From Calothrix sp. FI2-JRJ7 (GTDB lineage Bacteria > Cyanobacteriota > Cyanobacteriia > Cyanobacteriales > Nostocaceae): a stretch of 64,000 nt of DNA. Positions 49,929 through 52,321 of the stretch are shown piece after piece. A model generated the notes under the pieces. That model saw only the letters and a list, made by a program, of their open reading frames with translations, was not told where the DNA came from and did no database searches. The translations under genes and the position numbers were made by a program. How positions within the stretch are numbered: position 1 is the first letter of the stretch; each line of letters starts with the position of its first letter. Location of the stretch: assembly GCA_019359675.1 (NCBI GenBank), contig JAHHGX010000067.1, forward strand, positions 124,001 through 188,000, in the 5' to 3' direction.

Positions 49929-50741
49929 ATGGATTCTTCCCACCTTAACTTTACAAATCAAAATTTGCAAAATCGCTCGTTTAAAGGACTCAATTTGAAT
50001 GGCGCCAATTTTAGTGGTGCGGATATTCGCGGATGTGATTTTAGTAACGCACAGTTAAAAGATGCTAATTTTACAGAAGCCAAAATTGGTCAATCGCCAA
50101 GAGTTTTTGTTTTTGTGCAAACAATTGCGTGTATAGTAGCTATTATTACGTTTAAAGCAGTCAGTGAAATGTCGTTTGGTGTACTTGGACGCACTCCTGA
50201 AGAGTCAGCCTGGTCTTACAGTGTGGCTTTGTTTGTTAGTTTAGGGATAGCGGGGTTGTGTGCTAGTTTTAGCGGCATTACTAAGCAAAATTCTATTTTC
50301 CAACGTTTGACTACAATTATATCCGGCGCCGCTTCTGGAGCTTTGCTTGGATTTTACTATGGTGGTAGTACTCAAGGTAATAATCCTCAAATTGCGGTGA
50401 TATCGGCAGTTGTAGCGTCGTTGGTTATGGCATTTGTATGCTTTAAGTTTAAAACTGGGTTTATTACGGTTGTGGTTGCAGTTGCTGGTTGTATTGCAAA
50501 TTATGGGTTTGCTTTTTTACTTAGTAGTTTGGCGTTTGCCTTTCTAAGTATTCCAAATATTTTATTAGGAAGTATTTTGATATGTCTGACTTTAATTGCT
50601 ACTGTATTGACTATGCTTTGTTTACTACAGGCAGTTAAAGAAATTACTAGTGTTGGTGTTACATCATTTAAAGGCGCCAATTTATCTAATGCTAAATTTG
50701 ATGGGTCTGTTTGCAACGGATACAATGGATGTAACGGATGA
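49929..50741 (+). CDS. Pentapeptide-repeat membrane protein
   Basis: 270 residues. A pentapeptide-repeat block (about 6-50: NLNGANFSGADIRGCDFSNAQLKDANF) is followed by several membrane helices (58-230) and a second short block (FKGANLSNAKFDG). The C-terminus CNGYNGCNG is translated from a 9-base tandem repeat (TAACGGATG), which has cut the second pentapeptide block short. The function of such membrane pentapeptide proteins is unknown. Confidence 0.82.
   Translation: MDSSHLNFTNQNLQNRSFKGLNLNGANFSGADIRGCDFSNAQLKDANFTEAKIGQSPRVFVFVQTIACIVAIITFKAVSEMSFGVLGRTPEESAWSYSVALFVSLGIAGLCASFSGITKQNSIFQRLTTIISGAASGALLGFYYGGSTQGNNPQIAVISAVVASLVMAFVCFKFKTGFITVVVAVAGCIANYGFAFLLSSLAFAFLSIPNILLGSILICLTLIATVLTMLCLLQAVKEITSVGVTSFKGANLSNAKFDGSVCNGYNGCNG
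50712..50740. repeat. TAACGGATG tandem repeat at gene 3' end
   Basis: Imperfect units of GCAACGGAT, ACAATGGAT and GTAACGGAT lead into the TGA stop of the pentapeptide gene. Same family as 11399, 35622 and 57039. Confidence 0.7.
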
Positions 50742-50759
50742 GTTATTTGTCACGTTGCA

Positions 50760-51025
50760 ATGTTTTTATATTTTATGTAGTATGGTTGTAACTCATGGAA
50801 GAGGAAAGACCCCTCGGAGAGGTTTACTCGAACGGGAAATGTTAGTTAAGGTGATTAGCATTGGCGGTTAGTAGGGTAAAACGTATGTGCAACGATACTG
50901 CAACAAAGTGTCATGTTCATGGTGTGCTGACTTTAAGTTAACAGTGCGCGGGATGTGGAAGCTGGATGGTACCGCCGTGAATACGGTTCCAGCGAGTAAA
51001 ACTTAACCCATAAGGGTTTTTTGTC
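50760..51025 (+). promoter_or_regulatory. T-box-like leader of the aspartyl-tRNA synthetase gene
   Basis: The 3' part folds into a canonical T-box antiterminator: helix A1 GCTGGA (50961-50966) with TCCAGC (50988-50993), the 7-base bulge TGGTACC (50967-50973), and helix A2 GCCGT/ACGGT (50974-50987) with loop GAAT. The TGG of the bulge can pair with the CCA end of uncharged tRNA. A competing hairpin AACCC/GGGTT (51005-51018) with T6 follows and also masks the AAGGG ribosome site before ATG 51026. TTAAGTT (50933-50939) can pair with AACTTAA (51000-51006). Stem I and the specifier codon could not be fixed. Confidence 0.65.
51005..51022 (+). terminator. Leader hairpin with U-tract before aspartyl-tRNA synthetase
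   Basis: AACCC (51005-51009) pairs with GGGTT (51014-51018) and TTTTTT runs to 51022, four bases before the start codon. The stem is short; it may regulate by terminating or by hiding the ribosome site. Confidence 0.5.
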
Positions 51026-52321
51026 ATGGTACTTTGCTCAAAAAGATTTATTGCTTCGTTGGAAGCATCGTTAACTGAAGAAGTTGTGATTTGTGGATGG
51101 ATACTGCATCTGCGAGAACTTGCTCGTACTACGTTTATTGTCGTCAAGGATTGTAGTGGTCAAGTGCAATGTGTTGTAGCTTCTGAGTTGGTGCGAGAAT
51201 TGAAGCTCAAACTCGATGAACCTGTGGAAATAAGAGGTAAAATTAAGCCCGATAAACGAGCTAAACTTGGTTTTGAGGTAGAAGTTATTGAGATTAATGT
51301 TCTTAATCAAGTATCTGTACTGCCTTTTAATTCAAGTTCAGATATTTCTGATATTGGTATCGAAACTATCTTGGCTTACCGTCCGTTGTCGCTGCGTCAT
51401 AGTGAGATAGGTGATATTTTTCGGATACAAGCTGCTATTTTGCAATACTTTCGGCAATTTTTAGGCGCCAGATATTTTACAGAAGTAGTCACATCCAAGA
51501 TAGTATCTAGGGGAACTGAGGGTGGGACAAATCTGTTTGAAATCAAATATTTTGAACGCGCAGCATATCTTGCCCAAAGTCCGCAGTTTTACAAAGAGTA
51601 TGGAGTTTCAGGTCTAGAGCGAGTGTTTGAGACTGGTTACGTTTATCGTGCAGAACCTCACGCAAGTAGTAGACATTTGACGGAATACTACTCTTTAGAT
51701 TTGGAAATGGGATTTATTAACAGTGCTGAAGAAGTAATTGAGTTAGAACGAGAACTACTAACGTTTGTTTTTGAGCAGTTGAACCAAAACTTTCCAAGTC
51801 AACTGAAAAATTACAGAACAAAATTACTTCCCTCAATGTTGAATGTACCCACTTGGGAATTTACAGAATGTTTAGAACGACTCAATCATCGCTTTGGTCG
51901 TAACGACCTTATTGACGACCTAGACCCAGAAGCAGAACGTCAACTTTGCCAGCTAGCGGAAGCCGAAACAGGAATACCAGCGCTGTTTGTAATTGGTTTT
52001 CCTTTATCTGCAAGACCTTTTTACACACACCCGCGCGGTCATGAAGGCGCCTCACAAAGTTTTGACTTATTATTTGAAGGCATTGAAATTACAACAGGTG
52101 GGAAAAGATTACACAAACGCGAAGATTTAAAACAATCCTTAACAAATCGTAATCTTAACCCCGCTTCATTTGAAAATCATTTACAAATGTTTGAACTAGG
52201 AATGCCACCACATGGAGGACTAGCAATTGGTTTAGAACGTTTAACTTCCCGAATCTTAAATTTACCCAACGTTCGACAAGCATCACTTTACCCACGCGAC
52301 AGGTATAGAATCACACCATAA
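51026..52321 (+). CDS. Archaeal-type aspartyl-tRNA synthetase
   Basis: 431 residues, without the GAD insertion of the bacterial AspRS (which is about 590 residues). The N-terminal OB anticodon-binding domain has [12 protein letters not shown]. The class II core has motif 2 in [25 protein letters not shown] (R208, R216, H217) and motif 3 [15 protein letters not shown]; the C-terminus is [10 protein letters not shown]. This type is often non-discriminating, charging both tRNA-Asp and tRNA-Asn, the latter for GatCAB amidation. In clostridia such genes are linked to T-box control. Acquisition by transfer with its leader is plausible but not shown. Confidence 0.9.

Follow-up and report, generated by a model that had tools for sequence, protein, structure and literature searches.

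A predicted tRNA-Asp T-box riboswitch with an ultrashort stem I upstream of a second, archaeal-type aspartyl-tRNA synthetase in Calothrix sp. FI2-JRJ7

Introduction

T-boxes are known mainly from Gram-positive bacteria. The ultrashort-stem-I translational ileS T-boxes of Actinobacteria were reportedly described by Sherwood and colleagues in 2015, and the archaeal-type aspartyl-tRNA synthetase (AspRS2) of Clostridium acetobutylicum is said to be controlled by a T-box.

Translational T-boxes with an ultrashort stem I before ileS in Actinobacteria are treated in passages of PMC7583486 and PMC10651847, and the aspS genes of C. acetobutylicum are mentioned in the text of PMC2494555. As to their range, T-boxes are confined in a passage of PMC3766115 to Firmicutes, Actinobacteria, Chloroflexi, and Thermus/Deinococcus, with Geobacter in addition, and a part of PMC2965389 mentions isolated Gammaproteobacteria and Chlorobia that have a T-box for hisS. 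The survey results of Wels 2008 (PMC2494555) include 0 T-boxes in 13 cyanobacteria. No report of T-boxes in Cyanobacteria or Acidobacteriota was found among the papers listed in the literature searches, which took in titles and the opening lines of abstracts and not the tables of TBDB (PMC7778990).

The sequence analyzed here is from Calothrix sp. FI2-JRJ7 (GCA_019359675.1, contig JAHHGX010000067.1, positions 124,001–188,000 of the forward strand), and all coordinates refer to this whole stretch of 64,000 nt (the window). A T-box-type element spans about 50787–51025 on the + strand, upstream of an AspRS gene at 51026. Like the actinobacterial ileS type, which is known here from descriptions, it has a stem I without a tRNA-elbow module and a specifier in the apical loop; the K-turn, stem II S-turn, IIA/B pseudoknot, stem III, and antisequestrator are also common to both, as far as the passages cited describe them. 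It differs from that type in having a putative Asp specifier and not Ile, in preceding an archaeal-type AspRS and not IleRS, and in a C that replaces the purine after the specifier. The hosts found here are Cyanobacteria, Acidobacteriota, and others rather than Actinobacteria, and some of the relatives carry terminator-like hairpins rather than sequestrators. With the canonical T-box family (RF00230), the window leader shares the core modules and a full-length model alignment, but it is without the upper stem I and under the gathering score. The AspRS2 of a Clostridiales MAG (L028) is also an archaeal-type enzyme under a T-box and a neighbor in the protein tree (91/85), whereas its T-box has a long stem I (104 bits with RF00230) and a specifier that is apparently Asn.

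Results and Discussion

Architecture of the Leader

A first-pass annotation of the window had described an antiterminator composed of a 6-bp helix, the 7-base bulge TGGTACC, and a second short helix, together with a competing hairpin ending in T6 at the start codon, and both are present in the sequence (Table 1). The element begins well upstream of the antiterminator, at the base of stem I, and the features of a T-box are all present in order: stem I with the specifier, K-turn, stem II S-turn, IIA/B pseudoknot, stem III, and antiterminator. Stem I measures 30 nt, carries the specifier in its apical loop, and is without the tRNA-elbow module (IDTM). The T6 run of the competing hairpin stops 3 bases before the ATG of the AspRS gene. 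The first pair of helix A2 is G50974-U50987 in the window, and among 24 aligned leaders it is G-U in 18, G-C in four, and A-U in two. Folded alone, the window leader has an MFE structure that is not a T-box throughout, and 11 of 200 shuffles fold equally well (z −1.71).

Table 1. Coordinates of the leader and the AspRS2 gene in the 64,000-nt window; pairing percentages and counts are from the 24 aligned leaders.
Feature	Position	Strand	Remarks
Putative promoter	50755–50783	+	−35-like TTGCAA 50755–50760, 17 nt, −10-like TAGTAT 50778–50783
Ultrashort stem I	50792–50821	+	Base helix 50792–50794/50819–50821; 100% paired
Stem I K-turn letters	G50798 A50799 / G50817 A50818	+	One letter deviates in L017
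Stem I upper helix GAGG/CCTC	50801–50804/50812–50815	+	100% paired
Stem I end loop AAAGACC, 7 nt	50805–50811	+	Carries the putative specifier
Putative specifier GAC (Asp)	50808–50810	+	GAC in 24/24 leaders; tRNA-Asp anticodon GUC
Stem II	50823–50880	+	Proximal helix 50823–50829/50874–50880; 7/7 pairs change on both sides, 98.2% paired
Stem II S-turn GAA/AGUA	50830–50832/50870–50873	+	
Stem II distal helix, variable	within 50823–50880	+	78.9% paired
Stem IIA/B pseudoknot	50882–50901	+	IIA 50882–50884/50892–50894; IIB 50889–50891/50899–50901
Stem III	50906–50960	+	Helix 50911–50915/50954–50958; 98.3% paired, 4/5 pairs change on both sides
Stem III flanks	RRRxG = AAGUG 50906–50910; AA 50959–50960	+	Flank rule as worded in a passage of PMC7583486
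Antiterminator/antisequestrator	50961–50993	+	A1 + bulge + A2
Helix A1, 6 bp GCTGGA/TCCAGC	50961–50966/50988–50993	+	100% paired
T-box bulge UGGUACC, 7 nt	50967–50973	+	UGGNACC in 23/24 leaders
Helix A2 GCCGT/ACGGT	50974–50978/50983–50987	+	97.5% paired
Competing hairpin AACCC-ATAA-GGGTT + T6	51005–51022 (hairpin 51005–51018, T6 51017–51022)	+	Terminator-like site in generic scan
Archaeal-type aspartyl-tRNA synthetase (AspRS2), 431 aa	51026–52321	+	NF003483, 471.7 bits

The RF00230 model aligned over its full length (1–219) to 50787–50994 with 44 bits (E 1.6e-8 for 501 bases), and its gathering score of 93 bits is a curation cut-off, not a biological feature. At the gathering threshold, the Rfam scan of the window reported only a tRNA-Asn and missed the T-box. 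The score falls below the threshold because the upper stem I is missing: five bases of the leader stand opposite 74 model positions. The alignment is far better than chance would give, and it was by far the best match in the whole genome and the only convincing one, with the next at 14.7 and 14.5 bits (150 of 409 first-look candidates scored). Other weak Rfam matches at the leader (DUF3085, mir-2941, and PCA3_2) were at chance level. Relatives of the same type also scored under the gathering score (40–64.3 bits among the matches listed), and most had no RF00230 match at E up to 1 in the locus searches, which matched three of nine and one of 11; at L005, the same locus as L014 of the alignment, a search at E up to 1 found nothing. 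Over 386 cyanobacterial genomes, RF00230 gave 0 matches under stricter filters that also lost the window's own element, which makes this zero uninformative for the present type. The covariance-model check suggested earlier had a divided outcome: the score is under the threshold (44 versus 93), yet a stem I is present.

Comparative Evidence for the Fold

Leaders from Cyanobacteria, Acidobacteriota, and single MAGs labeled Chlorobiota and Oligoflexia (labels as deposited) were aligned with MAFFT, and all counts rest on this alignment of 24 leaders, the model-fitted alignment being left out. Of the 958 cells in 40 named pairs, pseudoknot included, 96.7% were paired, and 24 of the pairs showed changes on both sides, where close relatives sit among the 24 leaders and the cells are not independent events. 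The covariation score was 0.431 compared with 0.189 for shuffled alignments, and none of 500 shuffles reached any of the five measures. When the pair sets were slid, the score was 0.061–0.107 and pairing fell to 39–45%. Unguided RNAalifold recovered stems I, II, IIB, III, A1, and A2 with 15 leaders and again with 24; the distal part of stem II, the weakest helix and one whose length varies by clade, was recovered with 15 leaders only.

In stem I, one pair of the base helix changes on both sides (U-A to C-G, one sequence), as do two pairs of the upper helix (G-C to C-G and G-C to A-U, two sequences each), which occurs as GAGG/CCUC, GACG/CGUC, AAGG/CCUU, and GAGG/CCUU. In the pseudoknot, IIA was 100% paired with one of three pairs changing on both sides, and IIB was 94.4% paired with two of three. 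Letters of the S-turn deviate in L014, L016, L017, L021, and L046, and one K-turn letter deviates in L017. The single exception to the UGGNACC bulge is L014. The antiterminator expected in orthologous leaders was thus found to be kept, as was stem I, and comparison of the relatives establishes the predicted fold. The Pleurocapsales locus L014 (L014:2239-3796) looks damaged twice, with the altered T-box bulge and an AspRS frame broken by a stop. At L020:2265-2452, in a Solibacteraceae MAG, the antiterminator is kept and the upstream half is unrelated sequence, which may be a chimeric contig or a real loss.

A score under the Rfam threshold could also be read as a sign that this is a conserved structured leader of another use, for example a protein-binding or constitutive RNA element, which is a T-box in looks only. 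Against this stand the T-box modules, complete and in order, the covariation of the fold, and a downstream gene for the synthetase that matches the loop codon, and we consider this reading very improbable.

Promoter and RNA Start

The −10-like hexamer of the putative promoter sits exactly 6 nt ahead of the AACTC of stem I. Over 19 leaders (the 24 aligned minus five close Calothrix copies), the mean match to TATAAT at that offset was 4.0 of 6, compared with at most 2.53 at 39 other offsets. The promoter pair of the window has eight of 12 matches and is under the threshold of a generic promoter scan, which gave two other sites nearby (50698–50726 and 50747–50774). We infer that the 5′ end of the RNA lies at the foot of stem I, at about 50787–50790. 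With the −10-like box at this distance a longer stem would not fit, so stem I really seems to be short and not shortened by an alignment artifact. Farther upstream, 50693–50741 is the end of a pentapeptide-repeat gene with a 9-base tandem repeat, TGCAACGGA, at 50712–50740, and for this segment every one of three related genomes has dozens of matching sites (about 40 scored per genome).

The Downstream Gene and a Second AspRS

The gene behind the leader had been taken for an archaeal-type AspRS, an aminoacyl-tRNA synthetase and as such a classic T-box target. This assignment was borne out by NCBIfam NF003483 (aspartate--tRNA(Asn) ligase), whose cut-off of 353 bits is well exceeded (471.7 bits). 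The nearest solved chain by sequence is 1n9w, "aspartyl-tRNA synthetase 2", an archaeal-type non-discriminating enzyme, aligned over residues 9–431. A bacterial AspRS scored above its own cut-off in all 17 carrier genomes tested, the window's genome among them (over two contigs in G593); the T-box would therefore govern an additional, second AspRS, and the presence of this second gene is established by comparison of the genomes. The proposal of a T-box-type leader before an archaeal-type AspRS in a cyanobacterium is supported by the fold, the relatives, and the gene family. At L019, ACG stands at the expected start codon (about 2474), where close relatives have ATG.

Specifier and tRNA

The end loop of stem I has the consensus A-N-A-G-A-C-C (one C shorter in L016). 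GAC is invariant, whereas all four letters occur two positions ahead of it; AGA and ACC in the loop are also conserved, and GAC was chosen as the reading frame because the gene is an AspRS. The search for a specifier proposed in the first-pass annotation found a stem I with GAC (Asp), and AAC/AAU (Asn) was absent from the loop in all 24 leaders. tRNA-Asn was rejected as the ligand on that ground, and the specifier, as read from the aligned loops, is Asp, not Asn.

The choice between the two tRNAs bears on an alternative in which the T-box senses tRNA-Asn and a non-discriminating AspRS2 feeds Asp-tRNA-Asn to GatCAB. The NCBIfam name of the enzyme and the non-discriminating type of the nearest solved structure agree with it, and the long T-box of the clostridial MAG L028 reads GAACA near the specifier position in our own reading. 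Against this stand the stem I loops, with AAC/AAU in none of 24 and GAC in every one, and sensing of tRNA-Asn is most unlikely here. At L028:2077-2400, a second antiterminator core was seen by motif only about 100 bases after the first, perhaps in tandem.

The base 3′ of the predicted Asp specifier is C (C50811 in the window) and is C in the relatives too; a passage of PMC7583486 states that T-boxes usually have a purine there. A tRNA-Asp pattern was matched in 13 of 16 carrier genomes, and in 12 of those 13, ARAGORN read a tRNA-Asp (GUC), all with G73. At the variable base of the bulge, 11 leaders have C and 13 have U, the latter including the window and L014 with its altered bulge. The bulge U of the window would face G73 of tRNA-Asp in a G-U wobble, not a Watson–Crick pair. 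An earlier caution about a G-U pair with the discriminator base, raised for tRNA-Asn, extends in this way to tRNA-Asp, for which G73 was read in the window's genome (L079).

Distribution and Relatives

AspRS2 is rare around the window's host: in a sample of 291 genomes of its order, three held a relative (E up to 1e-90), namely, the window's own, G244 (71% identical, with a stop inside), and G200 (L006, 40% identical), where Rfam gave no T-box. A scan of one genome per species yielded 33 loci encoding relatives of the enzyme. Twenty of these (L007–L025 and L030) were at least 59% identical, and 18 of the 20 carried the full leader according to model R1, which was built from 15 leaders. At L020, R1 found the 3′ part of the leader only (32.1 bits), and at L024 (Myxococcota) it found no leader. 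The remaining 13 loci are more distant, and their leaders were judged by motif only, except for L028, which was also examined with the models. The carriers are Calothrix, Dulcicalothrix, Brasilonema, Scytonematopsis, Oscillatoria CS-180, a Pleurocapsales cyanobacterium, Acidobacteriota, and single Chlorobiota and Oligoflexia MAGs.

Among the 21 genomes behind the loci, R1 gave one strong match each in 19, of which 14 had supplied training leaders and five had not; the remaining two were G1093 (L020), with a weak match, and G1094 (L024), with none. R1 also found five genomes beyond the protein search (G908, G1107, G1124, G1131, and G1136), and AspRS2 was behind the leader in all five (by eye in G1107, G1124, G1131, and G1136). 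The linkage of the leader to AspRS2 is thus established by comparison. Surveys with R1 were draws from larger groups with stricter filters. They matched one of 386 genomes in the cyanobacterial phylum sample (the window's own), 12 of 192 genomes and six of 56 genera in the window's family (with at least one same-genus genome, G1144, without a match), four of 347 genomes in the phylum of L017 (two of them strong, the seed and G908), and one of 144 in the phylum of L021 (the seed). Two weak matches in Acidobacteriota (21.8 and 21.6 bits) lay beside or in frames unlike AspRS in the ORF list and were set aside as chance. The genome G1136 of the window's family holds both the short Asp type and a canonical long-stem-I T-box (L103:437-732 in G1136:C1:225154-227900; RF00230 101.1 bits, above the gathering score). 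The latter precedes an IleRS whose NCBIfam matches, for the first 648 residues only, include MupA and MupB, both far below their cut-offs.

In a protein tree of 29 rows, the 19 labeled rows grouped together with weak support (63/24), and L024 stood beside L021 and L025; the cyanobacterial (100/100) and acidobacterial (96/96) clades were firm. The leader and gene had been proposed as a possible transferred regulatory unit, archaeal-type AspRS with T-box leaders being known in clostridia. The tree does place the clostridial enzymes as next neighbors (91/85), but gene and leader of the cyanobacteria fall together with those of Acidobacteriota, and the single clostridial MAG relative with a T-box (L028) has a canonical long one; a plain transfer from clostridia does not follow from these data. 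Mobility of the cassette was considered and rejected: in Calothrix NIES-4105 (L009), the upstream neighbor differs, but the window's flank follows in the same order about 2.4 kb away, which indicates an insertion beside a syntenic locus and gives no sign of cassette movement. A search of viral contigs for the exact pattern GGAAGCTGGATGGYACCRCC gave no match, and neither did blastn with the leader against plasmids; AspRS2-like genes were found on 19 plasmid records (E up to 1e-40), all less than 60% identical. No antibiotic cluster was seen by eye beside the window's AspRS or in the fetched flanks of the relatives.

Output Platform

The hairpin at the start codon of the window is open to two readings, and it may act on translation instead of terminating transcription. 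In the predicted fold of the 3′ half of the window leader, six of the 11 bases of the A2/A1 3′ strand pair downstream, as do two of the three AUG bases, with a z of only −1.16. Alternative folds had a mean z of −1.39 over 23 leaders (L094 left out), with L030 above zero and the strongest values in L018 (−4.1), L017 (−2.87), L012 (−2.71), and L022 (−2.56). In several Acidobacteriota (for example, L018, L017, L022, and L023), the UCCAGC strand and the following bases pair beside or over the Shine–Dalgarno sequence and AUG, and this modeled pairing would act as a translational sequestrator. For Scytonematopsis and another two members of the window's family (L012, L089, and L090), the pairing joins GGUUCC to a downstream complement before AUG. 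Longer hairpins sharing the AGCAG strand occur in Oscillatoria (L013) and Pleurocapsales (L014), where U4 or U5 comes next and AUG stands approximately 13 nt further; hairpin and U-run together look like a terminator. No clear output platform was seen in L021, L025, and L030. One type of aptamer is apparently joined to two kinds of output among the relatives. The tRNA-elbow module is generally required by T-boxes that act on transcription and absent from most of those that act on translation (PMC7583486), so L013 and L014 would be exceptions, having a terminator-like output without that module.

The same T-box could therefore act through transcription termination in the window as well, with the antiterminator keeping 51005–51018 and T6 from forming an intrinsic terminator. 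The sequence does contain this hairpin and T6, a generic scan marks them as terminator-like, and L013 and L014 have the longer hairpins with U4 or U5; however, the U-run of the window ends 3 nt from AUG and the stem has five pairs. Moreover, in several Acidobacteriota a hairpin in the same place pairs GCAAAU-like bases with AUUUGC by AUG and covers the Shine–Dalgarno sequence, where a terminator is not needed, and T-boxes without the tRNA-elbow module are mostly translational (PMC7583486, section 6.2). Termination is a real possibility for this leader, although we would not expect it.

Proposed Mechanism and Significance

Taken as a whole, the element is read as an ultrashort-stem-I T-box riboswitch, a predicted sensor of tRNA-Asp that switches on a second AspRS2, with a probability of roughly 0.9. 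Binding of the tRNA, sensing of its charge, the direction of control, the type of platform in this species, and the physiological trigger are deduced as follows. Transcription would start at the foot of stem I, and uncharged tRNA-Asp would bind the GAC of the end loop through its anticodon GUC. The stem II S-turn, placed by the K-turn and the IIA/B pseudoknot, would brace the codon–anticodon pairing and so stand in for the tRNA-elbow contact that this type lacks. GCCA at the free 3′ end of the tRNA would then pair with UGGU of the bulge and stabilize the antiterminator/antisequestrator. With the UCCAGC strand thus occupied, it could not pair over the Shine–Dalgarno sequence and AUG (or help a terminator), and AspRS2 would be made; with charged tRNA-Asp, the 3′ end would not be seated and the gene would be off. 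A housekeeping bacterial AspRS is also present, and AspRS2 would be the second synthetase called upon when charging of tRNA-Asp fails.

Microcin C-like compounds act on AspRS, according to a passage of PMC9239234, and duplicated synthetases are described as known resistance devices in part of PMC9437257. By analogy, AspRS2 may be such a device. More tentatively, and rather doubtfully in its full extent, leader and gene could be a portable "spare synthetase" module, in which a minimal tRNA-Asp T-box and an archaeal-type AspRS, patchy over at least four phyla (two by one MAG each), would be induced once the housekeeping AspRS fails under a block such as a natural inhibitor of the microcin C type; some cyanobacteria would then use a terminator despite having no tRNA-elbow contact, which is kinetically unfavorable in current T-box theory.

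A predicted ultrashort tRNA sensor with strong covariation in Cyanobacteria and Acidobacteriota lies below the reporting score of Rfam, and since it is missed at that score, the spread of T-boxes is probably underestimated. Two apparent outputs on one aptamer make it testable why a long stem I accompanies transcriptional control. For the carriers, the finding points to a reserve AspRS that would be triggered when charged tRNA-Asp runs short, as a response to AspRS inhibitors would be expected to work.
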